Shown here in pieces: positions 2,167 to 37,342 of a stretch of 42,116 nucleotides of DNA. Every line of letters begins with the position of its first letter. The stretch's first letter is position 1. Position numbers and translations under genes: made by a program. The notes below the pieces were generated by a model. That model had not been told where the DNA came from. It made no database searches and worked only from the letters and a program-made list of their open reading frames with translations. This DNA is from an uncultured Erysipelotrichaceae bacterium (GTDB lineage: Bacteria > Bacillota_I > Bacilli_A > Erysipelotrichales > Erysipelotrichaceae). Location: positions 1-42,116 of the forward strand of contig CAMNFS010000012.1 in NCBI GenBank assembly GCA_946537255.1, in the 5' to 3' direction.

Positions 2167-3015
2167 TTATAACAGGCCTGGGAAGAGAAAATGCAGTATA
2201 AATCCAGACGCAATGGAAACTGCCAGAATATAGAGGACAATCTTGATGTTGTTTTTCCAGTTTGGATTCACCCGGAACAGAACCATGATGCCGACTCCGG
2301 CATTGGCCAGAAGTCCGGCAATGACCCCGGCAAAGCTGATCACATGATCAAGATAAAGGGAAGAAAGAAGGACCGAGCTGGCACAGCTTGGAATCAGCCC
2401 GACAAGGGCACAGGATATGATTTCAGAGCCGCGGTTGGCAGTGAGAAAAGACCGTACGGCATCTTCTCCGACTGCCGTCATGAATGCGTTGATCAGAAAT
2501 GTGACAACCAGCAGCCAGAAGGTGATCTTCAGGGTGTGTTTGACGGCGGATTTCAGGATCCCGTCATCGCATTCACAGTTTTCCCTTTCACAGAAGCTTT
2601 CGATATCCGGTTTGCGGTGATCACTGAAGCGATCCGCAATCAGTCCGGCAATGCAGGAAACGATGAACTTGACCGCAAGAATGCGGAATATCACATCCAG
2701 TCCTGCCTGACGGGAAATCAGAATCGGGATCATTTCATCACTGGTACTGAGAAACACCGCGATCAGGGTTCCTGCGGAAATGACACCGGTGGCATACAGA
2801 CTGCCGGCAGCGCTGGAAAAACCGCATTCCGGCACGAGACCGAACAGACTTGCGAAAACCGGCGCGAACCGGCGGTGCTTTTCCAGAAAGGACTCAAACG
2901 CACCGTCGGTCGTATGTTCCATCCATTCCATCAGCAGATAGGTGACAAACAAAAACGGAATCAGTCTGCCGACGTCCATCAGGGTATCAAGAATAATATC
3001 TACGAGAGTTTCCAT
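2167..3015 (-). CDS. Putative heavy-metal/arsenic exporter, ArsP_2 family
   Basis: This is a 282-residue polytopic membrane protein of two related halves. Each half carries a membrane-embedded P-x-C motif: VPECGFSSAAG near residues 61-71 and LIPSCASS near 208-215. This is the arrangement of the ArsP_2 (formerly DUF2899) family, often labelled 'putative arsenic efflux' or 'putative manganese transporter'. The central hydrophilic loop (about 130-155) holds three close cysteines at 142, 147 and 149 with acidic neighbours, a plausible metal site. The start has GGAGGG nine bases upstream and overlaps the end of apbE by 16 bp, so the genes are one transcript. The substrate cannot be decided from sequence. 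Confidence 0.75.
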   Translation of the reverse strand: METLVDIILDTLMDVGRLIPFLFVTYLLMEWMEHTTDGAFESFLEKHRRFAPVFASLFGLVPECGFSSAAGSLYATGVISAGTLIAVFLSTSDEMIPILISRQAGLDVIFRILAVKFIVSCIAGLIADRFSDHRKPDIESFCERENCECDDGILKSAVKHTLKITFWLLVVTFLINAFMTAVGEDAVRSFLTANRGSEIISCALVGLIPSCASSVLLSSLYLDHVISFAGVIAGLLANAGVGIMVLFRVNPNWKNNIKIVLYILAVSIASGFILHFLFPGLL

Positions 3016-4139
3016 GTGATTCTGCCCTCCAGTCCTTCTGTATATACGGCAAACAGGGATCCGAGTTCCCTGGAAAAAGCGGAAGTTTCCGGTTTTCTGG
3101 AGGCGTCGATCAGCCAGACGGCCTCCGCGTCTTTGCCGCTGTCCCTTCGATAGGTTTCCAGCAGTTTCTTTCCATCCTCCAGGGAAAGATTGAACAGGGA
3201 GGTGGAAAGACAGTCCGCATCCGCGCTGTCAGGCGTGATGACAGTGACCGAACGGTAGCGGTCAGACGGCATCCGGGTTGCGGGATCGATAATGTGGTGA
3301 TAGCGGTTTCCATCCCCGGCGATGTAGAAGCGTTCGTAGTCACCGCTTGTGACAAAGCTTCCGGTACCGTCCATATGAAGAACGAGGACCGATCCTTCCC
3401 CGTCAGGATTCTGTATCCCGACATTCCAGGGTGTTCCATCCGTTTTTTCTCCTATGGTGCGGTTGTTTCCGCCGGCATTGACCGCGGCGTGTGTGCAGCC
3501 AAGTGACTCGAGAAGCAGAGCGGTTTTTTCCGTCGCGAAGCCCTTGGCGATTCCTCCGGCATCAATGGAGATATCCGGGTCATCAATGAATACGGTATTT
3601 GCGCTGCGGTCGATGACAATATGATCATAACCGCGGTGCTCTCCGGCTTCCTTCAAAGCGCGGCTGTCCGGTACGGTTCCAAAGCCGCCGTTTTCATTGG
3701 CGGCGATTCCTTCCGTGCGGTATTCATGCCACAGCTGAAGCAGACTGCCCATGGTGATGTCAAAGGACTGATCACTGTGAGAGGAGAAATACTTTGCCCT
3801 GTCAATCAGTTCAATCAGCTCCGGATCGGTTTTGACCGGCTGAATGCCGGCATTGTCATTGACGGTTTTGAGATTGTTGATTCCATCATAGGTATGATAG
3901 ATATCAAACAGCTGATTATAATGCGTAAAACTGTCACACATGGCTTTGAAATGCGCCTGAAACTGTTCCTGATCATCTGTCTGTTCCACCAGAGTGATAA
4001 CCGTGTCAAATCCGGAATCCAGCGTCACATTGGTAAAGGTGCGCACTTCCTTATTTCCTTGAAACGTTTCTGCCTTCGGCCCGCAGCCTGAAAGCCATGC
4101 GGTCATAAGACATGCGATCAGCGTTATTCTTGGTTTCAT
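3000..4139 (-). CDS. apbE: FAD:protein FMN transferase, lipoprotein
   Basis: ApbE attaches FMN covalently to Thr/Ser of target motifs, notably in RnfG and RnfD. The protein is 379 residues from the chosen start, which begins a lipoprotein signal (MKPRITLIACLMTAWLSGC, with the lipobox Cys at residue 19), so it works on the outer face of the membrane. An in-frame ATG 42 bases upstream would put 14 unrelated residues before the signal and is rejected. The family signature DAGGIAKGFATEK is present, along with an N-A-G-G-N segment and a C-terminal D-A-D-C-L-S-T-S motif. It is divergent from the RNF operon, whose products carry at least four candidate flavinylation motifs, so they are the likely substrates. 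No strong Shine-Dalgarno is visible. Confidence 0.95.
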   Translation of the reverse strand: MKPRITLIACLMTAWLSGCGPKAETFQGNKEVRTFTNVTLDSGFDTVITLVEQTDDQEQFQAHFKAMCDSFTHYNQLFDIYHTYDGINNLKTVNDNAGIQPVKTDPELIELIDRAKYFSSHSDQSFDITMGSLLQLWHEYRTEGIAANENGGFGTVPDSRALKEAGEHRGYDHIVIDRSANTVFIDDPDISIDAGGIAKGFATEKTALLLESLGCTHAAVNAGGNNRTIGEKTDGTPWNVGIQNPDGEGSVLVLHMDGTGSFVTSGDYERFYIAGDGNRYHHIIDPATRMPSDRYRSVTVITPDSADADCLSTSLFNLSLEDGKKLLETYRRDSGKDAEAVWLIDASRKPETSAFSRELGSLFAVYTEGLEGRITWKLS

Positions 4140-4207
4140 AGGATGTATTTTACCATGTCCGGGGTGCTTTCCTGTGCCCATTTAGGAAATACAGGATAAA
4201 ACATACA

Positions 4208-4251: not shown

Positions 4252-5538
4252 ATGTCAATCTTAACAGGACCGATGCGCTTTCATCTCGATGGTCATAAGG
4301 AACTGACTGCACATAAGGAAGTCCTTTTCATGCAGGAGCCTGATGATCTTTTTATTCCGCTGGTGAACGGGCGTGCATCCTGCAAGCCACTGGTGAAAGA
4401 AGGAGATGAAGTCAGAGTCGGACAGAAAATCGGGGAACCCACCGATCCTTTCTGGTATGTTCCGATTTTTTCTCCGGTTTCAGGAACGGTTGTCGGCGTA
4501 GAAAAACGGATGACCGCCATGCTGAAACCAGGGGAACATCTGCATATCAGAAATGATCATAAAGGGACCTCAGTGCAGCCGTTTCAGAAACTTGATTATG
4601 AGAAGGCATCCAGAGAAGAACTCCTGGAGTTTGTGAAGCAGGCCGGCATGGCAGGCCTTGGAGGTGCCGGATTTCCGACATTCAATAAATATACAAAACC
4701 GGAAGGAATTGATCTGTTCATAGTCAATGCGGTGGAGTGCGAACCATATCTCACAGCGGATTATGCCAACTCAATGGCAAATGCGAAGCTGATGCGGACA
4801 GGTGTGCTGGCGCTGCTGAAGCTTTCCTGCGCTCCGAAGGGAAAGATCGCGGTCAAAGAGGATAAGAAGGATCTGATTGCCGTGCTTCATGAACAGTTTG
4901 ACGGAACACCGGTGGAAGTTGCGGAAGTGCCGGATATCTATCCGGCTGGCTGGGAACGGACTCTGATCCATATGCTGACGGGAAAGCGATACGACCGTCT
5001 GCCCGCGGAAGCCGGCTGTATTCTGAACAATGTCAGCACGGCGATCGCACTTGGCAACGCTCTTGAAAACGGGATGCCGATTACCAGAAAATATCTTACG
5101 GTTTCCGGCGATGGGGTCGTGAATCCTCAGAACGTGGTTGTGCCGGTCGGAACCCCGGCCAGTGAAGTAGTCAGACAGTGCGGCGGCTACAAGGGGGATG
5201 ACTGCCTTCTGATCGCCGGCGGTCCGATGATGGGCCGCACGATTCCGAATGATCAGTTTGTGATCGGTATCGCCAACAACGGCCTTACCATTCTGCAGCA
5301 CCGGGAACCGTTTTCGGTAAAATGCCTGCGCTGCGGCAAGTGTACGGAAACCTGTCCGAGCGGTCTTGTGCCGGTGCGCATTAATATGTGCGAACAGATC
5401 AAGGATATTGACAGCCTGAAGAAACTCAGCATCATGGACTGCATTGAATGCGGACTCTGTACTTATATCTGCCCGTCCAAACTGGATGTGACAGAAGGAA
5501 TCCGACGCGCCAAGAGATATATGGCGCTTGTGAAATAG
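4252..5538 (+). CDS. rnfC: RNF complex subunit RnfC (NAD-linked electron entry/exit subunit)
   Basis: RnfC is the peripheral cytoplasmic subunit that exchanges electrons with NAD(H). The 428-residue protein has an N-terminal barrel-sandwich segment (about 35-95). A flavin/NADH-binding core follows, with GLGGAGFPT at 135-143 and VNAVECEPYLTAD at 158-170. Then comes an SLBB-like part (about 255-340), and two ferredoxin-type [4Fe-4S] motifs at C358/C361/C364/C368 and C397/C400/C403/C407. Length and motifs are complete. The start is preceded by GGAAGGGAAG. It is the first gene of the operon; rnfD begins 16 bases after its stop. Confidence 0.96.
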   Translation: MSILTGPMRFHLDGHKELTAHKEVLFMQEPDDLFIPLVNGRASCKPLVKEGDEVRVGQKIGEPTDPFWYVPIFSPVSGTVVGVEKRMTAMLKPGEHLHIRNDHKGTSVQPFQKLDYEKASREELLEFVKQAGMAGLGGAGFPTFNKYTKPEGIDLFIVNAVECEPYLTADYANSMANAKLMRTGVLALLKLSCAPKGKIAVKEDKKDLIAVLHEQFDGTPVEVAEVPDIYPAGWERTLIHMLTGKRYDRLPAEAGCILNNVSTAIALGNALENGMPITRKYLTVSGDGVVNPQNVVVPVGTPASEVVRQCGGYKGDDCLLIAGGPMMGRTIPNDQFVIGIANNGLTILQHREPFSVKCLRCGKCTETCPSGLVPVRINMCEQIKDIDSLKKLSIMDCIECGLCTYICPSKLDVTEGIRRAKRYMALVK

Positions 5539-5554
5539 GGGAGGGAAAGGAAAA

Positions 5555-7486
5555 ATGAAATTCACATTCAAACCCTCGCCGAACTACCGCACCAGTCAGT
5601 CGACCTCCGGCATCATGCGGGATCTCACGCTGTGTCTTCTGGCGGTTCTGCTCTATGCGATCATCTACTATTCCGTCACCTACGGTATCGCGCATGGACT
5701 GCGGGCAGCGGGGCTTGCGGCGGTTTCGGTCATCTCTGCACTTGGCACGGACGCTGTCTATTTCAAGGTCATGAAGAAGAATGTCAGAACCGGTATCCTC
5801 TCTTCCTTTTCGTGGGTTACCGCTCTGATTCTGGTACTGATCTCAAGAATTGACACCGCTTACTATGCCATGGCGATCGCGACCATCATTGCCGTATTCT
5901 TCGGAAAACTGGTATTCGGCGGTTTCGGTCAGAATATCTTCAACCCGGCAGCGCTTGGTGCAGCGATCATCATGTCCAATTTCGCCGGAAGCTACAGCGC
6001 TGACTTTACAACCGGGGCAACCCCGACCGTGGCTGCCAAGGCGATCGGATGGATGATTCCTTCCGGAGAATTCTCTTCTTTCATTACCGGATACGGAAGC
6101 CTTGGAAAGATGTTTCTGGGGCAGTATTCCAGTACGATCGGCAGTACCTGCGCGCTTTTGATTCTGCTGTGCGGGGCCTTTCTCATCTGGTGCAGAGATA
6201 TCGACTGGCAGCTGCCTGTCTTCTATATCGGAACCGTTTTTGTGGAAGCGCTTCTGATCGGATTCATGCATGGAGCAGGGATTGAATACGCTCTGTTCTC
6301 TGTGCTTGCAGGCGGAGTGATCTTCGGCGGTGTATTCATGGTCACCGATCCGGTCACCACACCGGTTACCATTCCGGGAAGGGTTCTGTGGGCGATCGGC
6401 GCGGCCAGCCTGACGCTGATTATCCGTGACAAGTCCAACCTCAGTGACGGTGTACTCTTCGCAATTCTTCTGATGAACATGCTGACACCGGCGATCGACA
6501 AGCTGTTTGACGGCAACCAGATCAAGGATGCGGTGAAGTTCCGCAGAACTGTTCTGGCTGGCGGAGCTGCCTTTGCGGCAGTCACCCTGCTGGTGGGAAC
6601 CGCTGTCACATACAAAGCCCCCGCTGCCCAGGCGCCTGCCGCCGGCAGTGGTACTGCTTCCGCGGCACCGGCAGCCCCGACCTTCGGGGAGCCGCTTGCG
6701 ATGAGCTACAACTTCAACGCGAATAAGACAGAGTGCTCTCTGGAAAGCCAGGAAGGAACAACCGAAACCTATGCGTGTACTGCCAAGGGATTCGGTCTTG
6801 TGACCAACGCGGAAGGAAGCTATTCCCGAAATGAAGCTAAGGTCAGGATCGACAAGGCGGCGCATCGGGTCATCTCCGTTGAAGTGACAAACTTCGGGGA
6901 TACCACCGGTGTCGGTGATGCGGCGACAGGTGAAGAAGCTCTGAAGCAGTTTGAAGGAAAAGGACTTGAGGATGAGGTCAGCCTTGTGACCGGAGCGACT
7001 TTTACAACAAGATCCATCGCGTCCATGGTTCAGAAGGCACTGAAGATTTCGGATGGTTCGGCTGAGGCATCCGGTTCTGCGGCGGCTGCCGAATTTGGTG
7101 ATACGCTGCCGATGAGTTACAACTTCAACGCCAACCGGAGTGAATGCACCCTGGATGGCAGGGAAGGAGATACCTTCCGGTATGCCTGCACTGCCAAGGG
7201 ATTCGGCCTTGTGACCAACGCGGAAGGGACCTATTCCAATAATGAGGCAATGATTACGGTTGATGGAAGCACCGGCAAAGTCGTCAGTATCAGTATCATT
7301 CATTTCGGAGATACCGCCGGTGTCGGAGACAAAGCAGTCAGCGAAGAAGCGCTGAAGCAGTTTGAAGGCAAGACGATCAATGATGAAGTGAATCTTGTCA
7401 GCGGCGCGTCCTTTACGACCAGATCCATTGCATCCATGGTGCAGGCAGCGCTTAAGGAGGCTGCGGCAGAGGAGGGAAGTGAATGA
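5555..7486 (+). CDS. rnfD: RnfD fused to two tandem FMN-binding domains
   Basis: Residues 1-352 are a complete RnfD: a multi-helix membrane subunit with NIFNPAALG, the flavinylation motif TGATPT (acceptor Thr156, codon 6020-6022) and MVTDPVTTP. An Ala/Pro linker (353-375) leads to two extra FMN_bind domains at about 377-497 and 514-634. These are about two-thirds identical and exactly 137 residues apart. Each has a paired Cys (394/408 and 531/545) and its own flavinylation motif: TGATFT (Thr482) in the first and SGASFT (Ser619) in the second. Ordinary RnfD is about 310-350 residues and ends after the membrane part. The protein would therefore carry up to three covalent FMN, two of them on outward-facing domains. 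No frameshift is needed. GGGAGGGAAAGGA precedes the start, and the stop overlaps rnfG by 4 bp. Confidence 0.93.
   Translation: MKFTFKPSPNYRTSQSTSGIMRDLTLCLLAVLLYAIIYYSVTYGIAHGLRAAGLAAVSVISALGTDAVYFKVMKKNVRTGILSSFSWVTALILVLISRIDTAYYAMAIATIIAVFFGKLVFGGFGQNIFNPAALGAAIIMSNFAGSYSADFTTGATPTVAAKAIGWMIPSGEFSSFITGYGSLGKMFLGQYSSTIGSTCALLILLCGAFLIWCRDIDWQLPVFYIGTVFVEALLIGFMHGAGIEYALFSVLAGGVIFGGVFMVTDPVTTPVTIPGRVLWAIGAASLTLIIRDKSNLSDGVLFAILLMNMLTPAIDKLFDGNQIKDAVKFRRTVLAGGAAFAAVTLLVGTAVTYKAPAAQAPAAGSGTASAAPAAPTFGEPLAMSYNFNANKTECSLESQEGTTETYACTAKGFGLVTNAEGSYSRNEAKVRIDKAAHRVISVEVTNFGDTTGVGDAATGEEALKQFEGKGLEDEVSLVTGATFTTRSIASMVQKALKISDGSAEASGSAAAAEFGDTLPMSYNFNANRSECTLDGREGDTFRYACTAKGFGLVTNAEGTYSNNEAMITVDGSTGKVVSISIIHFGDTAGVGDKAVSEEALKQFEGKTINDEVNLVSGASFTTRSIASMVQAALKEAAAEEGSE
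6683..7456 (+). repeat. In-frame tandem duplication of an FMN-binding domain
   Basis: Two 121-codon units (6683-7045 and 7094-7456) are separated by a 16-codon Ala/Ser linker, giving a period of 411 bp. About 81 of 121 residues match, with identical blocks such as YACTAKGFGLVTNAEG and FTTRSIASMVQ. The high identity suggests a fairly recent duplication inside rnfD. Confidence 0.9.
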
Positions 7487-7992
7487 ACAGGGAAGGAACG
7501 TTATACAAGGTCGTTCTGCTTGGCGCTCTCTGCGCGATATGCGGACTTCTGCTGGGCGGAGTCAACTCGGTTACGGCACCGATCATCGAGGAGGCTGCCA
7601 TTGCGAATGAGAAGGCAAATCTGGAACTGATCTATCCGGGGGCCACCTTCGCTGTGCAGGACTTCAAAGATGACAGCGGCTACATTCAGGGAGTGTACAG
7701 CGCGGAAGGCAAAGGCATGATCTACAAGATTCATGCGGTCGGATACAACTCGGAAGGCTTCACATTCCTGCTGGCATTCAACAACGACGGCACGGTAGGC
7801 GGCTATCAGGTGCTGGAGGAAAATGAAACCAGCGGATTCGGAAAACGGTGCTTCGAGGATGAATATGTATCATCCATCAAAGGACTCACCAGTAATGACA
7901 GCGCTCCGCTTCTTTCCGGAGCGAGTCTGACATCCACAGCAATTCAGAAGGGGTTTGACGCCGCAAAAGCCCTCTTCAATGCCGGAAAGTGA
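7483..7992 (+). CDS. rnfG: RNF complex subunit RnfG (FMN-carrying)
   Basis: RnfG is a membrane-anchored periplasm-side (outer-face) subunit carrying a covalent FMN. The 169-residue protein has one N-terminal transmembrane helix (about 8-28) and an FMN_bind domain with the family's ETSGFG block at 115-120. The flavinylation motif at 145-150 reads SGASLT, so the expected acceptor residue (148, codon 7924-7926) is Ser rather than the usual Thr. It overlaps the rnfD stop by 4 bp (ATGA). The gene is slightly shorter than many RnfG proteins but complete. Confidence 0.94.
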   Translation: MNREGTLYKVVLLGALCAICGLLLGGVNSVTAPIIEEAAIANEKANLELIYPGATFAVQDFKDDSGYIQGVYSAEGKGMIYKIHAVGYNSEGFTFLLAFNNDGTVGGYQVLEENETSGFGKRCFEDEYVSSIKGLTSNDSAPLLSGASLTSTAIQKGFDAAKALFNAGK

Positions 7993-8000
7993 GGAAGGGT

Positions 8001-8720
8001 ATGAGTACTACTGAAAAGAAACGCGGCTTCTGGTCGGAGATGATATACAACAATCCGGTATTCGGACTGTATCTCGGCATCTGTTCCACGCTCGCGATCA
8101 CAACCACCCTCAACAACGCGATCGGCATGGGCGTAGCGGTGATTGCGGTACTGACGCTGTCCAATATTGTGATTTCGCTGATCGCGCCTCTGACACCGGA
8201 TGAAATTCACATCCCGGTCTACATTGTCGTTATCGCAACGCTTGTCACCGTAGTCGGCATGCTGATGCAGGCGTATACACCGGAGCTCTACAGCACGCTT
8301 GGCACGTTCATTGATCTCATTGTCGTCAACTGTATTATTCTTGGCAGAGCCGAGGCATACGCAAGTTCTCACAACGTAGCCGAAAGCGCAAGAGACGGCC
8401 TGATGATGGGACTCTCCTATACCTTCTCGCTGATTGCGATGAGTCTTATCCGTCAGCTTCTCGGAACCGGAGTTCTTGAATTTTCAAATCCGATGAATAA
8501 TCAGCTGATCTTTTCGGTCCGCCTGATTCCGGAAAGCTTTGTCATTCCGGTATTCACAACGCAGACCGGCGCGTTCCTGACCTTTGCGATTCTTGCGGCT
8601 GCCATATCCGCCATCAAGAACAATGACGCAAAGAAAGCGGCGGATGCTGCCAAGGCCAGGGCAGACAAAGAGAAAGCTGCCGCGGCAAAGGCTGTCAAGC
8701 CGGCAAAGGAGGCTGCGTAA
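8001..8720 (+). CDS. rnfE: RNF complex membrane subunit RnfE
   Basis: RnfE is one of the two paired six-helix membrane subunits that house a membrane-embedded Fe-S centre. The sequence has the expected NPVFGLYLGIC-STLAITTTL start, a conserved NCIILGRAEAYAS block and an RnfE-type C-terminal helix. The ATG at 8001 is chosen because the family begins just before the NPVF block and AGGAAGGG lies directly upstream, though the spacing is very short. A GTG at 7989 overlapping rnfG is the alternative. The last ~35 residues are an unusual Ala/Lys-rich charged tail, probably cytoplasmic. It is followed three bases later by rnfA. Confidence 0.93.
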   Translation: MSTTEKKRGFWSEMIYNNPVFGLYLGICSTLAITTTLNNAIGMGVAVIAVLTLSNIVISLIAPLTPDEIHIPVYIVVIATLVTVVGMLMQAYTPELYSTLGTFIDLIVVNCIILGRAEAYASSHNVAESARDGLMMGLSYTFSLIAMSLIRQLLGTGVLEFSNPMNNQLIFSVRLIPESFVIPVFTTQTGAFLTFAILAAAISAIKNNDAKKAADAAKARADKEKAAAAKAVKPAKEAA

Positions 8721-8723
8721 CTT

Positions 8724-9296
8724 ATGAATCTGCTTACACTGTTTCTTTCCGCACTTCTGATCAACAACGTCATTCTGTCGAAGTTCATCGGAATGTGCCC
8801 GTTCATGGGTGTTTCCACCAAGCTCAGTTCCGCGATCGGCATGGGCGTTGCGGTAATCTTCGTCATCTTTGGCGCATCGGTGCTTTCCTGGGCACTTTAC
8901 TACTATGCTCTTGTACCGCTGGGACTCGAGTATATGAAGCTGATCTGCTTCATCCTGCTGATTGCGGCATTTGTACAGTTTGTGGAAATGTTCATCAAGA
9001 AGAACTCCCCGGCTCTTTATAAGTCCCTGGGTATCTATCTTCCGCTGATCACCACCAACTGCGCGGTGCTCTATGTTGCCCTCGACAACATCACCCAGAA
9101 GTACAATCTGATCGAAACCATGGTGAACTCCATCGCGGTTTCTGCCGGATTCATGCTTGTTCTGGTCATCTTTGCCACGATCCGGGAGCGTCTTGCGGCA
9201 AGCGATGTTCCGGAGGCCTGGAAGGGAAATCCGATTGCCTTCGTTGTGGCCGCCATCATGGCGATTGCCTTCTCGGCATTTGCAGGTCTTGTATAG
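8724..9296 (+). CDS. rnfA: RNF complex membrane subunit RnfA
   Basis: The 190-residue polytopic protein carries the RnfA signature: INNVILSKFIGMCPFMGVS near residues 13-31 and TTNCAVLYVAL near 109-119. The Cys in each half are the known ligands of the intramembrane Fe-S centre shared with RnfE in this family. The length is normal. GGAGG lies about 12 bases upstream of the ATG, inside the end of rnfE. The next gene starts immediately after the TAG stop. Confidence 0.96.
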   Translation: MNLLTLFLSALLINNVILSKFIGMCPFMGVSTKLSSAIGMGVAVIFVIFGASVLSWALYYYALVPLGLEYMKLICFILLIAAFVQFVEMFIKKNSPALYKSLGIYLPLITTNCAVLYVALDNITQKYNLIETMVNSIAVSAGFMLVLVIFATIRERLAASDVPEAWKGNPIAFVVAAIMAIAFSAFAGLV

Positions 9297-9482
9297 ATGA
9301 AAATTCTGTTTGCGATACTGATTGCCGGAAGTCTGCTCGGACTCAATGTCTGGCTGTACAAGGCAAATAAAAATACGCCGGTTCCGGAAGGCTGCGAGAA
9401 TCTGAAGCCTGACTGTCATGGCTGCGGGATTACAGACTGTTCGCTGCGCAGAACAGAAGAAATCAGGGAGGATACAAAATGA
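9297..9482 (+). CDS. Small membrane-anchored four-cysteine protein in the RNF operon
   Basis: This 61-residue protein is of unnamed family. Residues 1-20 are a hydrophobic helix. A short hydrophilic tail carries four cysteines at 33, 40, 43 and 48. The spacing C-x2-C-x4-C of the last three equals that of the Fe-S domain of the adjacent RnfB (C46/C49/C54), so the tail could bind an Fe-S cluster. The gene fits exactly between rnfA (starts at the base after its stop) and rnfB (ATGA overlap), so it is co-translated and real despite its size. It might be an accessory subunit, a split-off piece of RnfB, or a cluster-loading factor; the sequence does not decide. Confidence 0.8.
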   Translation: MKILFAILIAGSLLGLNVWLYKANKNTPVPEGCENLKPDCHGCGITDCSLRRTEEIREDTK

Positions 9483-9760
9483 TCAAAGCACTGTTACTGA
9501 TGCTTGTGCTCGGCGGTCTGGTTGGACTGGTGCTGGGAATCGCATCCATCAAATTTCATGTCGAACCGGATCACAGGGAAGAAGAACTGCTCGGGATGCT
9601 GCCGGGATACAACTGCGGCGGCTGCGGATATCCGGGATGCTCCGGCATGGCGGCTGCGCTGGCGGACGGGTCCGGTGATGTCGACCGCTGCAAACCATCC
9701 AAACCGGATGTGAAAGCTGCGATCAAGCAGTACCTGAAGGATCATCCAAAGGAAGCGTAA
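9479..9760 (+). CDS. rnfB: Short RnfB: membrane anchor plus single [4Fe-4S] domain
   Basis: The 93-residue protein matches only the N-terminal third of RnfB: a transmembrane helix (about 4-24), then the Fes domain with GYNCGGCGYPGC and ligands C46, C49, C54 and C71. Standard RnfB (about 190-330 residues) continues with ferredoxin-type domains that receive electrons from ferredoxin; these are absent. The frame ends at a clean TAA, and the next 30 bases form a terminator, so this is not an interrupted longer gene within the window. GGGAGG sits seven bases before the ATG. It closes the operon. Confidence 0.88.
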   Translation: MIKALLLMLVLGGLVGLVLGIASIKFHVEPDHREEELLGMLPGYNCGGCGYPGCSGMAAALADGSGDVDRCKPSKPDVKAAIKQYLKDHPKEA

Positions 9761-30833: not shown

Positions 30834-33800
30834 ATGAGACGACTCAGAAATCTATGTTTTGCATGTCTGTTCAGTTTCTCTCTGTTTACGGTTCCGCTTG
30901 TTTCAGAGGAAACGGAGCCTGAAGCGTCAGAGACAGCAGTGGAAGAAAGAGAAGCGGATCCGGAAGAAATGACGGAGGAAAGTGAGGGACCCGCAGAATC
31001 CGAAGAAGATGAATCAACCCACATGAAGGAAGAGACTCCGGAGGAAACTGCCGAACTCATTCTGCCTGAGGAATCAGAATGCAAGGAAGAACCTGTGGAA
31101 GAACCTCCTTCTGAAACGGAGGAAGTCCCATCGGGCCTGATTCTGAATGCTATGGAGGAAGCGGATTACGGAGAAACAGATTCGATTGATCTTCATGAGA
31201 CCACGGCCCATGCGGCGGCCCGGATTCTGAAACAGGAGCTTTCAGAAGATGATTCTCTGATTCAGACGGATTCAGGCATGCTGGAATCACGGGGAAAAAT
31301 CGCTTCGTTTGATTCTGTGATCAATGAGGGATATACGGAATTCATCAAGCTGTATTTCATTCATGACCGTCCCGTGTACTGTGTGCAGCCGGAAGTGAAT
31401 CTGAAGCTGGTCAATGGAAAAGGAGGAGAGTATCAGGGCAGAACCTGGGACAGCATTGATACCGAGACAAGAACGCTGCTGAAGCGGATTTCCTACTTCG
31501 GATATGGATTTGAACCGATCGGTACCAGCAATGAAGCTTACGCCGGCACACAGCTTCTGATCTGGAAGGCAGTCTCTCCGCAGTACTTTGATTCCATCAA
31601 TCGGAGCCTGCATATGTGCCCCGGCATCCAGGCGGGGTTCAGCGCCTGCACCGTTGATCGGTCCGAACTGGATTCCATGATGAGCCGGATTATGCAGTAT
31701 GTGGAAAGCTATGATACGGTGCCGTCTTTTACGGAAACGGATGGGAGTCCGAAGTGTTATTCACTTTCCTGGAATGAGACTCTGGATCTTGAGGACAGCA
31801 AAGGGGTGCTTTCGTGGTTTGAAGAGGACAGTGAGGAAAGCCATGAGGGTATGGAACTCGAGGTCAGGGACAGCCATCTTCTGGCGCGGATTACTTCGCT
31901 TTCCTGTGACGGTAAGGAACAGGAAAACGGGAAGGTGCTGACCTTCCGCAGAAAAAAGGAACAATGGGAGAACATGCAGAACGGACTGCTTCTGTATGAG
32001 CAGAAAGATCAGCAGAAGCTGATGGCCGCAACCGGAGAGGACCCGGTTCCCCTGTACCGGATCGCGCTTCGTCTGAAAACCGGAGATGTACGTATTCTCA
32101 AGATGGATGAATATGGAAACAGCAGAGACGGGATGAAGGGGACCTCATTTGTGCTTGGCTGGAGAGAGGATCCGGAGGGAAGAATGGGTCCGGATCCGGA
32201 TGGGACCAGCGGGCCGTCAGAAACCTACGGGCTCCGCTATCCTCTGTGTAAAGACAACGGCGAGATCCGTGTTTTTGAGACAGACGCGGATGGATTCGTC
32301 CGCATTGAAGGACTTCCGGCGGAAACGGAGTGGTGGCTGAAAGAGATCACGGCCGGAGAAGGCTGTCAGAAGGAGACGTCTTCCAGTCTTCTGAAAGTCG
32401 GAGAAGACGGACAGTGTCTGGAATACTCTTTTGTCAACCGGCTGAGGAATCTGAACCTGGAGATTTCCAAGCAGGATGAGGAAACTGCCGGTGAGAAATT
32501 AAACGAGGCCGCCTTTGTCATCTATGAAACCGGAGAGAATCTGAACCTTTCAAAGAGATTCTTGGAAACCGGCCTGTCGCTCAGAAAGCAGGAAGAGGGT
32601 CCGGATCTTTCTTTCAGACAGCTGAAGGAATACAGCAGCCTGAAGGAAGGGGACAGGTTTGCGTTCGATGGATGGATCTTTGAAATCGATGAGATCCGCG
32701 GGGATACGTTCTTTCTCACCGCCCACCGGAAAGAGGATCCGCCTTCCTGTGTCTTCAGCCGCTACAGCCTTCCGAAGGATCTGAAGACAGGCGCGCAGCG
32801 TACCATTGTCATGACAGAACACATGCACGCAGGTAATGCCGACACCGAAGAGGTTCTCCTGAGGGTCGATGACATAAAACCAGCAGATGAAAAGACGACT
32901 GTCAAAGTAACATGGCAGTCCGCCGGGCAGAAAGGAAGTCAGACCGTGGATCTTTCGGAAGCTGCCCCGGTTTATTCTGATATTCCGGATGCGGCGCGTC
33001 TGAAGGAAGGGGATACCTTCACACTGTTTTATCCAAGATGGAATGAGGAAGGAAAGCCGGAAACCGGTGAGCAGACTTTCCGCATGATTACAAATGGCCC
33101 GCATATGGTAAAGGCGGAAAGTGAAGGAAAGGAGTATCTGATTGCGGCTCCGGATTGGATATCAGAACCGGATCTGCCTGAAAAAGGTTATTCCGACCGT
33201 TCGGTTCAATTGCTTTCCACGGCATCTTCCGTGTATGAAATCAGCGACTCCCGCGGCAACAGATACCGGTTGAGCAAGGAAGGAACAGAGGTTCTCGAAG
33301 ACAGCGATCATGCCGCGTCCAGGGATCTTTGCTGGGGGGATCTTTCGGAAAACGGGCACGAGGCAGAAAGATGGAAGCCGGGAGAGACTTTTGAAAAAAC
33401 AGTGATGGAATCTGTTTCCATCCCATATGAAGGAGTCCAGCTGGCGGACCTCAGCGAAAAGGAACGTCTCAGTACGGCAGGTACAGTGATAGAACGGAAG
33501 GAAGCTCAGTATGCAGTCCTGCAGAATGACGGTATTTCCATCCGGATCGCCTTTGTGAAAGACGGCATTCCGTATGAAGCGGAACTGACGGATGCGCCGG
33601 TTTCAGAGGCTTATGCCCAAATCGGGACGGAAGTGCGGTTTACAGTGGAATCCTGTCTTCCGGGAACCATTCATGTGCTGGAAGACGACGGCCGATCCCG
33701 GCTGCTGTCCGTGTCGGATTCTTCCCCGATTGTGGAACAGTATCTGAATTGGAAAAAGGAAATGGTACCGGAAGAGGCGGAGAGGGAAAACTTTTCAGCG

Positions 33801-36629
33801 GAAGAGGAACATGATCTGAGGGCAGGGGATTCCTTTGAGCGGAATGGAAGGACGTATGCAGTACTTGAGAAAGGGGAAGAAACCGTCCTGATCTATCCAT
33901 GGGAAGAAGACGCTCCGCTTTCCCCTCAGCAGATCAGAAATCTTTCCGAAACCATGCCGGAATGGACAGAAAGAAAGGAATCCATGCCGGGGTATACCGC
34001 CTGGAAGATCTCCGACGGCGAAAAAACATGGACCTATATCGAGGAACGGATTACTTCTGATTCAGAGCATTCAAAGAGCCTGCGTATGAGTGTCAGAAAA
34101 CCCTCAGAAGTGCTCTATGAAGAAGTTGATGCGGCTAGATACGGACCGAAGAAGCCTGGTCAGCATGTTTCCCTGGATGGAAAGCAGTATGAAATTGTTC
34201 AAATGCGGCAGACAGAAAGCGGACCGGAATATGAGATAAGGAACAAAGAAGGAACAGTATTCCGGATTCCGGATGAAAACGGGCTGCAGATTCCGCTGAC
34301 GATTGAGCAGATCGAGTCGCTTCCCTGCGATCTGTGTCCGGGCGATATTCTTTTCATTCAGAAGGAAGCCTATCAGATCCTGCAGGTACAGACAGAAAAG
34401 GGCTATGGGCAGGTCCTGCAGCTTCTGCGGCAGAAGGATCAGAAAAGGATGACTGTTTCTGAGCATCCGGATCCTGGCCGGATGGAAACCGAAACCATTC
34501 TTGTGATCCGTACCGGGGAAATCCGGAATCTGAACCCTGCTGAAGGCGGCAGTTACCGTCTCCGCACGCCGAATCCCCATGTAAGTCTTCAGTCGGAAAA
34601 CGGCGGCTGGACGATCCGGTCGGATGCCAATACCTGCGCAGTCCTTGAGGAGCGGGACAGAGAAGGTGAGATGACTGCCAGTCGCCGCATTGTTTTCTCA
34701 GAGTCAGAACAGGAAGGAGAATGGAACGTCCTTCCGGTATTTGCCGGCAGAACAGGACATCCGTATCTTCGGTTAGAAGGAAGGACCCGTTCCCTTCTGC
34801 CGATGGCGGGAGCGGAGGTGATTCTGTACAGCGATGAGGCCATGCGGAAAGAGGTTCTGAAAAAAACAAGTGACAGCTATGGAAGTGTGGATCTTTCGGA
34901 ACTGGAAAGCGGAACGTACTGGTATCTCGATCCTGAAAGCCTTGAAAAGCGCACGGTCAGTGTGGAGAGTGAATCGCTTCGAAAAGGAATCCTGCGGATG
35001 GAAGGGCTGAAATGGGGCAGAACCTATCTTGCGCTTGAGACCGAACTTCCGGATGGATATGACTATGGAAACGGGGAGGCAATGCATCTTGTTTCATTGA
35101 CTCCGGAAAAAGAAACAGAAACCGTGCATAAGGTGATCGGCAACCAGCTGAGAAGACTTACCGTCTCAGTTCTGAAAGTGGACCAGGACCAGCATCGGAT
35201 CCCTCTGAGCAACGCGTGGTTTACGGCGGAAGATGTGACGGATCTGGAAATGCGGGAAATAGATAGAGAGGATCATCCGGATTCATACCCGGTGACGCTT
35301 GAGGATATTCCAACCGGACTCCGTGCGGGGGACACGTTTGCGGTCTGGCCGGACAAAGTGAATGGAAGAAGGAACCACTGGCGGATTGAAACCGTGTCAG
35401 AGGAAGGAGCGGTGATATCGCTGATGGAGGATGGAGCGTTTGAGAGACGGTTCACTGTGCCGGTTCAGGGATATTCCGAGCATTCCCCCATGCTTTACAT
35501 CGACATCGTTCATGCCGTGGGAACACCGAAAGAGAAGACGGTTTTTGAGACAGTGGAAAAGGAGGATCCCTCCTCCATCCGGTTCTATCGGATCCTTTCC
35601 ATGGAAACCGGTCCGGTACAGGATGTTTTCGGACATCCGACAGAAGAAACAGGAATCATCCGAGCGGCGGTTGAGGATATCACTGACAGCAGTCATATTC
35701 CGATCATCCTGAAGGAACATGATCCCGCAGATCCGGTCGGAAACAGACTCATCGGTGAATATCTTTCCGGAGGACTGATTGTCCGCAAGGACAAGGAGGC
35801 ATCTCAGCTTCCAGTCAGTTTTGAGCAGCTGCTTGCGGCGGGAATCAGAGAAAAAGGAGAAACGATCCGGGTGCCGATGCGGCATATTGCGGACATGCCG
35901 GATTACGGCATGGTGCGCAAGGCGGCGGACAGCGGCCGAAGCGAACTGACCTATGGGATCGTATGGAATATTTCAAAAGAAGAGGATGGGTCCTGCTGGA
36001 TTGAAGCGAAGGGACAGAGTTTCTGGATCATGAAAGGAACGAGACCGGGAGCGATCGAGTGGATGGAAGAGGGTCTGCTGAAGGTGATTTCCTGTGAGAA
36101 GGAAGCTGGTCAGGTGAAGGCATACACGCTGGCGGATCCGAATGGCAATACCTGGTTTGTTTCCGGAGAGACAGCCCGTAAAACGGTGCGCACAGGAAGA
36201 TGCGGTGTGGAAGTGACAGTGACGTCCAGGGACAGCGGGATGGTGTTTCATGGATACACCGGAAGGGATGGAAGAGTGGTTTTCAGGGATCTGCCGGATG
36301 GAGATTACACGATTGAATCAGAAGGAACTGTTTCCGCTGCTCATACCGAGAAAGGAATGATCTTTCTCTCATCCGTTCCATATGGACATCTGATCCGGAT
36401 CTGTGAAACCAAATCACCGCTTGGGTATCTGCGCGGCAATGCCTGCGCAGTTCTTCAGCCAATGAGTGAATACGGAACGGATACAGTGACAAATACCCGC
36501 ACAAACAAAAAGACGACTGCCAGGGAAGAGGAGGTGCGAAGAATAGTGAAAATCAGAAAAATGGGAGATTCGATTCCGATCCGCTGGCTGATTTTTGATG
36601 AAGAAATGAATCGGAGGATGACCGTATGA
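30834..36629 (+). CDS. Giant secreted thioester-domain adhesin with SpaA-like and novel 'GD-x-F' modules
   Basis: The 1931-residue protein has a signal peptide (about 1-23) and a Glu-rich spacer (about 24-100). An N-terminal thioester domain follows, with Cys183 in VYCVQPEV and Gln240 in AGTQLLIWKA; such domains bind host proteins covalently. SpaA/CNA-B-like folds are seen around 415-505, 540-565, 1311-1402, 1443-1466 and 1790-1870. Between them are at least six beta-rich modules with a core like L-K/R-x-G-D-x-F followed by a Y/W-x-I/V strand, starting near 603, 723, 849, 996, 1107 and 1496. I do not recognise this module. The C-terminus reads IRKMGDSIPIRWLIF then a charged end: no LPXTG and no membrane helix. 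AAGGAGG precedes the ATG by six bases. The sortase gene overlaps the stop. Confidence 0.85.
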   Translation: MRRLRNLCFACLFSFSLFTVPLVSEETEPEASETAVEEREADPEEMTEESEGPAESEEDESTHMKEETPEETAELILPEESECKEEPVEEPPSETEEVPSGLILNAMEEADYGETDSIDLHETTAHAAARILKQELSEDDSLIQTDSGMLESRGKIASFDSVINEGYTEFIKLYFIHDRPVYCVQPEVNLKLVNGKGGEYQGRTWDSIDTETRTLLKRISYFGYGFEPIGTSNEAYAGTQLLIWKAVSPQYFDSINRSLHMCPGIQAGFSACTVDRSELDSMMSRIMQYVESYDTVPSFTETDGSPKCYSLSWNETLDLEDSKGVLSWFEEDSEESHEGMELEVRDSHLLARITSLSCDGKEQENGKVLTFRRKKEQWENMQNGLLLYEQKDQQKLMAATGEDPVPLYRIALRLKTGDVRILKMDEYGNSRDGMKGTSFVLGWREDPEGRMGPDPDGTSGPSETYGLRYPLCKDNGEIRVFETDADGFVRIEGLPAETEWWLKEITAGEGCQKETSSSLLKVGEDGQCLEYSFVNRLRNLNLEISKQDEETAGEKLNEAAFVIYETGENLNLSKRFLETGLSLRKQEEGPDLSFRQLKEYSSLKEGDRFAFDGWIFEIDEIRGDTFFLTAHRKEDPPSCVFSRYSLPKDLKTGAQRTIVMTEHMHAGNADTEEVLLRVDDIKPADEKTTVKVTWQSAGQKGSQTVDLSEAAPVYSDIPDAARLKEGDTFTLFYPRWNEEGKPETGEQTFRMITNGPHMVKAESEGKEYLIAAPDWISEPDLPEKGYSDRSVQLLSTASSVYEISDSRGNRYRLSKEGTEVLEDSDHAASRDLCWGDLSENGHEAERWKPGETFEKTVMESVSIPYEGVQLADLSEKERLSTAGTVIERKEAQYAVLQNDGISIRIAFVKDGIPYEAELTDAPVSEAYAQIGTEVRFTVESCLPGTIHVLEDDGRSRLLSVSDSSPIVEQYLNWKKEMVPEEAERENFSAEEEHDLRAGDSFERNGRTYAVLEKGEETVLIYPWEEDAPLSPQQIRNLSETMPEWTERKESMPGYTAWKISDGEKTWTYIEERITSDSEHSKSLRMSVRKPSEVLYEEVDAARYGPKKPGQHVSLDGKQYEIVQMRQTESGPEYEIRNKEGTVFRIPDENGLQIPLTIEQIESLPCDLCPGDILFIQKEAYQILQVQTEKGYGQVLQLLRQKDQKRMTVSEHPDPGRMETETILVIRTGEIRNLNPAEGGSYRLRTPNPHVSLQSENGGWTIRSDANTCAVLEERDREGEMTASRRIVFSESEQEGEWNVLPVFAGRTGHPYLRLEGRTRSLLPMAGAEVILYSDEAMRKEVLKKTSDSYGSVDLSELESGTYWYLDPESLEKRTVSVESESLRKGILRMEGLKWGRTYLALETELPDGYDYGNGEAMHLVSLTPEKETETVHKVIGNQLRRLTVSVLKVDQDQHRIPLSNAWFTAEDVTDLEMREIDREDHPDSYPVTLEDIPTGLRAGDTFAVWPDKVNGRRNHWRIETVSEEGAVISLMEDGAFERRFTVPVQGYSEHSPMLYIDIVHAVGTPKEKTVFETVEKEDPSSIRFYRILSMETGPVQDVFGHPTEETGIIRAAVEDITDSSHIPIILKEHDPADPVGNRLIGEYLSGGLIVRKDKEASQLPVSFEQLLAAGIREKGETIRVPMRHIADMPDYGMVRKAADSGRSELTYGIVWNISKEEDGSCWIEAKGQSFWIMKGTRPGAIEWMEEGLLKVISCEKEAGQVKAYTLADPNGNTWFVSGETARKTVRTGRCGVEVTVTSRDSGMVFHGYTGRDGRVVFRDLPDGDYTIESEGTVSAAHTEKGMIFLSSVPYGHLIRICETKSPLGYLRGNACAVLQPMSEYGTDTVTNTRTNKKTTAREEEVRRIVKIRKMGDSIPIRWLIFDEEMNRRMTV

Positions 36630-37342
36630 AGCGGATGATTCCTGTCTTCGCGGTGAGTGGAGCGGTTCTTGCGGCGGCGATCATCTTCGGCCTGATGAAA
36701 CAGCCTGGGCCGGCGGCGGAACTTGTGCACGCGGAAGTAAGCCGTTCCCAGGAATATGTCAGTGAACTGCAGGAGGAGGCAATGAATCTGAAGGCATGGC
36801 AGAAAATCAATCCGGATGTGAAGTATGTTCTGACCTTTCCGGATGAGGAGAGAAAACGAACGATCCCGGTGCTTGCGACACCGTCGGTATCCTACGTCAT
36901 GAAACACAATATCCGCAATGAGTATGACACGATGGGTTCGGTATTCTGTGACCCATCCTTCGATGAACCGGAAAATCTAGTGATCTATGGGCACTCGAGT
37001 CAGACGAAAGACTGGAATTTCACATTTTTCCGAAACTATGCGGATCCGCAGTACTATCGCAGTCATCCTTCGATTCTTCTGGAAAGTGAAAGCGGAATCT
37101 GTCCATGCCGGATTGTGTCTCTGGCCAGTTATGACATGGAAAAGGATGAGTATCTCGGCTGGGCGGACAGTACGCTTTCCGGCACGGAGGAGATCGCTGC
37201 GATGTTTCAGAACACGGTGGAAAACCTGATTCAGCATACCGACGGATTTGTATATCACGGCGGCGGAATCGTGACGCTGGTTACCTGTGATATGAATCAG
37301 AATGATACCCGGTATGTGATTCAGGCGATGAGGGAAATGTGA
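36626..37342 (+). CDS. srtB: Class B sortase
   Basis: Sortases are membrane transpeptidases that link surface proteins to the cell wall or to each other. The 238-residue protein has an N-terminal signal anchor (about 5-24). The sortase triad is present: His123 in VIYGHSS, Cys221 in TLVTCDMNQNDTR and Arg229. The long helix before the barrel and the GHSS and TLxTC-x7-R forms point to class B. GGAGG lies eight bases upstream. The ATGA overlap with the adhesin gene makes that protein the likely partner, though it has no classical signal. Next gene begins 14 bases after the stop. Confidence 0.93.
   Translation: MKRMIPVFAVSGAVLAAAIIFGLMKQPGPAAELVHAEVSRSQEYVSELQEEAMNLKAWQKINPDVKYVLTFPDEERKRTIPVLATPSVSYVMKHNIRNEYDTMGSVFCDPSFDEPENLVIYGHSSQTKDWNFTFFRNYADPQYYRSHPSILLESESGICPCRIVSLASYDMEKDEYLGWADSTLSGTEEIAAMFQNTVENLIQHTDGFVYHGGGIVTLVTCDMNQNDTRYVIQAMREM

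Follow-up and report, generated by a model that had tools for sequence, protein, structure and literature searches.

An RNF-type operon of an uncultured Erysipelotrichaceae bacterium with two predicted extracytosolic FMN domains fused to RnfD

Introduction

The canonical RNF complexes of Clostridium tetanomorphum (7zc6) and Acetobacterium woodii (9eri) comprise the subunits C, D, G, E, A and B. In solved RNF complexes RnfD has ten transmembrane (TM) helices, both of its termini are cytoplasmic and its C-terminal arm binds RnfC (PMC9588780, PMC11889175), and in characterised RNFs three to eight clusters are held by RnfB (PMC11889175). Multi-flavinylated RnfG was proposed by Meheust et al. 2021, together with a bifurcated electron transfer in such RNFs that also reaches outside acceptors (PMC8238504). 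Extracellular proteins carrying three and four covalent FMN have been shown (SaFMN3 and CbFMN4, PMC10339131), in which FMN_bind domains stand in tandem and are joined by linkers of small residues. In NQR/RNF-like two-gene systems an RnfD/NqrB-type membrane domain is C-terminally fused to a redox module, and outward electron transfer has been proposed (PMC8238504, PMC11334425).

Here we analyze a stretch of 42,116 nucleotides (the window) from an uncultured Erysipelotrichaceae bacterium, in which RnfD continues into two FMN_bind domains. The window shares with the canonical complexes all six subunits, the FMN site T156 and the RnfC domains, and its RnfD core fold matches theirs (Z 30-33), but its RnfD adds an eleventh TM helix (TM11) and the two FMN_bind domains, and its RnfB has one FeS domain only. 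As in the multi-flavinylated RnfG complexes, additional FMN_bind domains are predicted to be extracytosolic, but here they sit on RnfD behind the added helix and RnfG has a single domain. The tandem domains and small-residue linkers resemble SaFMN3 and CbFMN4, which are separate secreted proteins, whereas the window tail belongs to an ion pump. The two-gene systems differ from the window in that their membrane domain is joined to a cytosolic NAD-binding domain and they lack the remaining RNF subunits. A multi-flavinylated RNF is an already known kind of complex. For an RnfD-borne FMN tail with its own TM helix, for tail exchange involving rnfD and rnfG, and for a one-cluster RnfB, we found no description in the open-licence literature (papers without their supplements), and given this coverage 'undescribed' is provisional. 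The reading we favor, with a probability of about one half, is that the RNF has acquired a flavin outlet on the extracytosolic side, which may supply electrons to secreted flavin reductases.

Results

The rnfCDGEAB genes form an intact operon (4252-9760) in which all six subunits are recognized by Pfam, with apbE divergent. The features are as follows.

3000..4181, minus strand: apbE, FAD:protein FMN transferase, 393 aa (Pfam ApbE, E 3.9e-70), divergent from rnfC
4252..5538, plus strand: rnfC, 428 aa, with RnfC_N, Complex1_51K, SLBB and 4Fe-4S (Fer4) domains; NAD module intact (Pfam)
5555..7486, plus strand: rnfD fused to two FMN_bind domains, 643 aa (ORF, Pfam, AlphaFold)
5555..6514, plus strand: RnfD core, residues 1-320, 10 TM helices; FMN acceptor T156, codon 6020-6022 (motif, structure comparison)
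6530..6604, plus strand: added TM helix 11, residues 326-350 (hydropathy 2.06; AlphaFold block, pLDDT 87-96; absent from solved RnfDs)
6605..6682, plus strand: Ala/Pro linker, residues 351-376 (sequence; partly pLDDT <50)
6683..7051, plus strand: FMN_bind domain D1, residues 377-499; predicted acceptor T482, codon 6998-7000 (Pfam, AlphaFold, motif)
7094..7480, plus strand: FMN_bind domain D2, residues 514-642; predicted acceptor S619, codon 7409-7411 (Pfam, AlphaFold, motif)
7483..7992, plus strand: rnfG, 169 aa, one FMN_bind domain; SGAS ending at residue 148
7989..8720, plus strand: rnfE (Pfam Rnf-Nqr, E 2e-55)
8724..9296, plus strand: rnfA (Pfam Rnf-Nqr, E 2.1e-55)
9479..9760, plus strand: minimal rnfB, 93 aa; TM anchor with a single FeS shuttle domain (4 Cys), FdII/FdIII module absent

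The locus has the marks of an RNF: six subunits in one operon, the NADH/FMN domain and 4Fe-4S sites of RnfC, and flavinylation motifs in RnfD and RnfG. ApbE begins with a lipoprotein-like signal, LIACLMTAWLSGC, as read from the sequence, and its gene lies divergent next to rnfC in most of the family's relatives. A putative ArsP_2 family permease (2167-3015) adjoins apbE.

The sequence-only reading had described a complete RnfD, an Ala/Pro linker and two FMN_bind domains in a single frame. The ORF is indeed uninterrupted (643 aa, 67.3 kDa), and Pfam assigns NQR2_RnfD_RnfE to residues 5-321 (E 1.5e-66) and FMN_bind to two stretches (E 2.3e-16). Model residues 11-328 align structurally with RnfD/NqrB structures at Z 27-33. 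For D1 and D2, compared within the full-length model, Foldseek gave NqrC no better than E 0.05-0.25 and the VIA-align rows spanned the RnfD core only; D2 matches domain 1 of CbFMN4 (8p2b, E 0.002). The two domains, said to be about two-thirds identical, share 64% of residues over 128 aa (DNA 72% over about 340 bp; dN/dS 0.15). Multi-flavinylated proteins carry at least two FMN_bind domains on one extracytosolic protein, and the fused RnfD has two by Pfam, placed outside by TM count.

Motifs of the form [ST]GA[ST] end at T156 in the RnfD core (TGAT), at T482 in D1 and at S619 in D2, one for each added domain as had been reported, and the gene that follows is, likewise as reported, a normal rnfG with a single domain and SGAS. 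With residue 148 of RnfG, the motifs predict up to four covalent FMN per complex, the number that had been proposed. 'Four-flavin' here counts covalent FMN alone; an RNF has in addition a riboflavin within RnfD and a further FMN within RnfC. At the position of the motif's usual first Asp, D1 has Ser, D2 has Asn and RnfG has Pro, which is probably tolerable because an Asp-to-Ala change in a fumarate reductase model affected flavinylation only slightly (PMC12052999). Ser is a weaker flavinylation acceptor than Thr (PMC12052999), and the Ser acceptor of D2 counts against the outlet reading.

Because the C-terminus of canonical RnfD is cytoplasmic, a plain C-terminal fusion would point inward. The solved RnfDs reach only to about residue 316-330 of the window protein, which past that point adds the Lys/Arg-rich KDAVKFRR and then the hydrophobic helix 326-350. 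With this helix, six TM helices lie between T156, which is outside, and D1, so that D1 and D2 come to lie on the side of T156; without it they would be cytoplasmic. By predicted topology both domains are thus apparently extracytosolic, as an outlet requires. That the extra domains face outward had already been claimed, and the claim stands, but solely thanks to TM11, which had been missed. A cytoplasmic location was rejected on topology, namely the hydropathy and AlphaFold model of TM11 and the ends of the solved RnfDs. A TM11-like helix is found in 68 of 68 scorable short-RnfB loci (some genomes counted twice), which further favors an outlet, and also in relatives whose RnfD has no fused FMN domain.

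Misassembly of the repeat at 6683-7456, named earlier as a possible artefact, was tested and ruled out: separate genomes share the architecture (G033, G023 and the Solobacterium MAG RGIG568), D2 is orthologous in G033, with which it groups at 100/99, and D1 and D2 differ at 36% of residues. The closest relatives are ruminant-gut MAGs labelled Solobacterium and other Erysipelotrichaceae. Within the window's genus FMN domains number 0 to 2 on RnfD and 1 to 5 on RnfG, compared with 0-3 added domains on RnfD and 0-4 extra on RnfG among Erysipelotrichales relatives; RnfDs with three occur outside the genus (L072, L093). RnfDs extended by FMN domains occur as well in Dielma fastidiosa, Massilimicrobiota sp. 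An134, Candidatus Stoquefichus massiliensis and Proteiniclasticum aestuarii, and 296 sampled genomes of the class include RnfD frames >450 aa in several families (selected by length, FMN content checked in part). The impression that the fusion is a rarity was therefore not borne out, given these long RnfDs and the proposal of multi-flavinylated RNF in 2021. Two further loci (L121, L123) have RnfDs of 535-541 aa whose C-terminal extension is unmatched by the FMN profile, yet has TGAS/TSAS-like motifs at its end. In Dielma and Traorella (L101, L112, L115) FMN_bind and the RnfA/E model both hit a single ORF of 354-381 aa, possibly an FMN_bind-RnfE fusion.

Domain turnover is fast: the number of fused domains changed at least 27 times on the RnfD tree (rows without long RnfB), and in eight close genomes the tandem copies originated several times or were homogenised. 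The added FMN domains of RnfD and RnfG intermix as one pool, separate from most RnfG first domains. In two loci the 3' tails of rnfD and rnfG are near-identical at the DNA level across the last 370-410 bp or so (96.6% in L042, 99.7% in L043), which suggests recent domain copying between the neighboring genes, although a local assembly error in both MAGs may account for it. The several separate duplications and the tail identity would also fit neutral accretion, in which recombination gains and loses tandem copies that do nothing important. Against this, the fused domains are under purifying selection (dN/dS 0.05-0.16) and most copies retain the flavinylation motif (55/69 RnfD-fused domains standing beside an rnfG), and we consider neutral accretion distinctly improbable; the same constraint speaks for an outlet.

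Tethered domains could also act as a spare or second RnfG, aiding or replacing it between RnfA/E and RnfD. Some Bacilli operons have no rnfG gene and carry FMN_bind only as an RnfD fusion (L118-L120, L122, L124, L125, L128, L131), and two genomes of the window's genus have a true RnfD-RnfG fusion (G031 and G004; loci L074 and L075), both of which would suit such a shuttle. In the window rnfG is intact and D1 and D2 belong to the tail-domain pool, apart from RnfG first domains, making this role unlikely here. The RNF of G031 and G004 is a different one, with a long RnfB of 272-286 aa, and stands far from that of their own genus on the RnfD tree.

The 93-aa RnfB, like TM11, had gone unnoticed in the sequence-only reading. 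Its single FeS domain, with 4 Cys in the whole protein, corresponds to FdI/B8, which in characterised RnfBs is the mobile shuttle, and the FdII/FdIII part is the presumed docking place of ferredoxin. As no multi-cluster ferredoxin-accepting module was found, we call the complex RNF-type with a minimal RnfB and treat ferredoxin as its presumed donor. All RnfBs found within the 95-row RnfD clade (support 99) have 87-131 aa, compared with 271-296 aa in all found outside. A TM segment with a single FeS domain is seen throughout this Erysipelotrichales/Bacilli clade (window 9479-9760; L036-L073, L077-L148), and because RnfB is short clade-wide, truncation of the window copy by a local frameshift or assembly error was rejected. 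In a survey of 120 genomes of the class, with frames picked by length rather than operon context, RnfB-size FeS frames mostly have about 90-135 aa, a few, carrying two FeS domains, have 183-194 aa, and a single frame has 268 aa. In the 183-194 aa frames of G088, G100, G110 and G119 an FeS (PF04060) domain occurs twice in tandem, which may reflect duplication of the RnfB shuttle domain. The one-cluster RnfB of the clade raises the question of what the ferredoxin-docking part of RNF is for.

The window genome also encodes, outside the rnf operon, a lipoprotein of 1212 aa in which two flavin-reductase units, each FMN_bind/FAD_binding_2, stand in tandem (L076:7686-11324; genome G000, contig C23). 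Across 31 genomes of the genus, hand counts among the matches listed, which are approximate, give a mean of 3.1 reductase units per genome with at least one extra RNF FMN domain and 0.5 without (p = 0.001; p = 0.02 in genomes at least 90% complete). With kinship controlled, 2-3 independent contrasts are left, each of which is neutral or points the expected way, and significance is unattainable at such numbers; within the set of genomes that have extras, reductase number does not track domain number (rho 0.04). The correlation was rejected as proof of an outlet, since the independent contrasts are too few. A redox buffer, in which flavins tethered at the outer face would store electrons and even out one- and two-electron transfers between RnfG and RnfD, no external acceptor being involved, does not by itself predict more secreted reductases alongside extra domains. 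D1 and D2 do adjoin the RnfG/RnfD pair, and their number varies freely among close relatives, as expected of a capacity rather than a fixed path; we judge a pure buffer somewhat unlikely.

Discussion

In the outlet reading, ApbE would attach FMN to RnfD at T156, T482 and S619 and to RnfG at Ser148. Reduced ferredoxin (or NADH, in reverse) would supply electrons to the outer-face RnfG/RnfD FMN pair as in an ordinary RNF, and from there they would pass either back inward to RnfC and NAD or, hopping through the tethered tail, on to an external acceptor. The flavin wire suggested by the sequence-only reading is plausible in this sense. A pump with such extra outward flavins may therefore deliver electrons also to targets outside the cell, and the secreted two-unit lipoprotein of the same genome is a candidate acceptor. 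Topology, constraint and the excess of reductase units argue for an outlet, as do two precedents, the bifurcation proposal (PMC8238504) and the proteins with three and four covalent FMN (PMC10339131). The few independent contrasts, the flat relation within genomes that have extras and the location of the reductase gene count against it, and several close relatives of the window genome do without any extra domain.

More tentatively, and with doubts outweighing our confidence, the RNF of Erysipelotrichales and wider Bacilli could be a distinct sub-type, with input through a one-cluster RnfB, a TM11 on which interchangeable flavin tails dock, and a branch donating to secreted flavin reductases, in a ferredoxin-driven anaerobic respiration on external organic acceptors. 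To our knowledge, the electron supply to the secreted flavin reductases of fermenting gut bacteria is known only in part. An RnfD with outward flavins would link the ferredoxin pool to extracellular respiration directly and with energy conservation, and cultured relatives that share this architecture, among them Dielma fastidiosa and Massilimicrobiota sp. An134, would allow the link to be tested.

Other conduits are at hand in the window genome, which also counts against the outlet: a NusG_II/Gx-transporter-like pair resembles EetA/EetB (L157) and a further gene is a Fer4_5/thioredoxin-like fusion (L158). Hence the idea of RNF as the sole possible conduit was not sustained. Ferric_reduct (MsrQ-type) gave no match in nine genomes. 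Farther along the window lies a gene for a 1931-aa surface protein with thioester and SpaA-like domains (30834-36629), directly followed by an ORF that by eye looks like a sortase (36626-37342).
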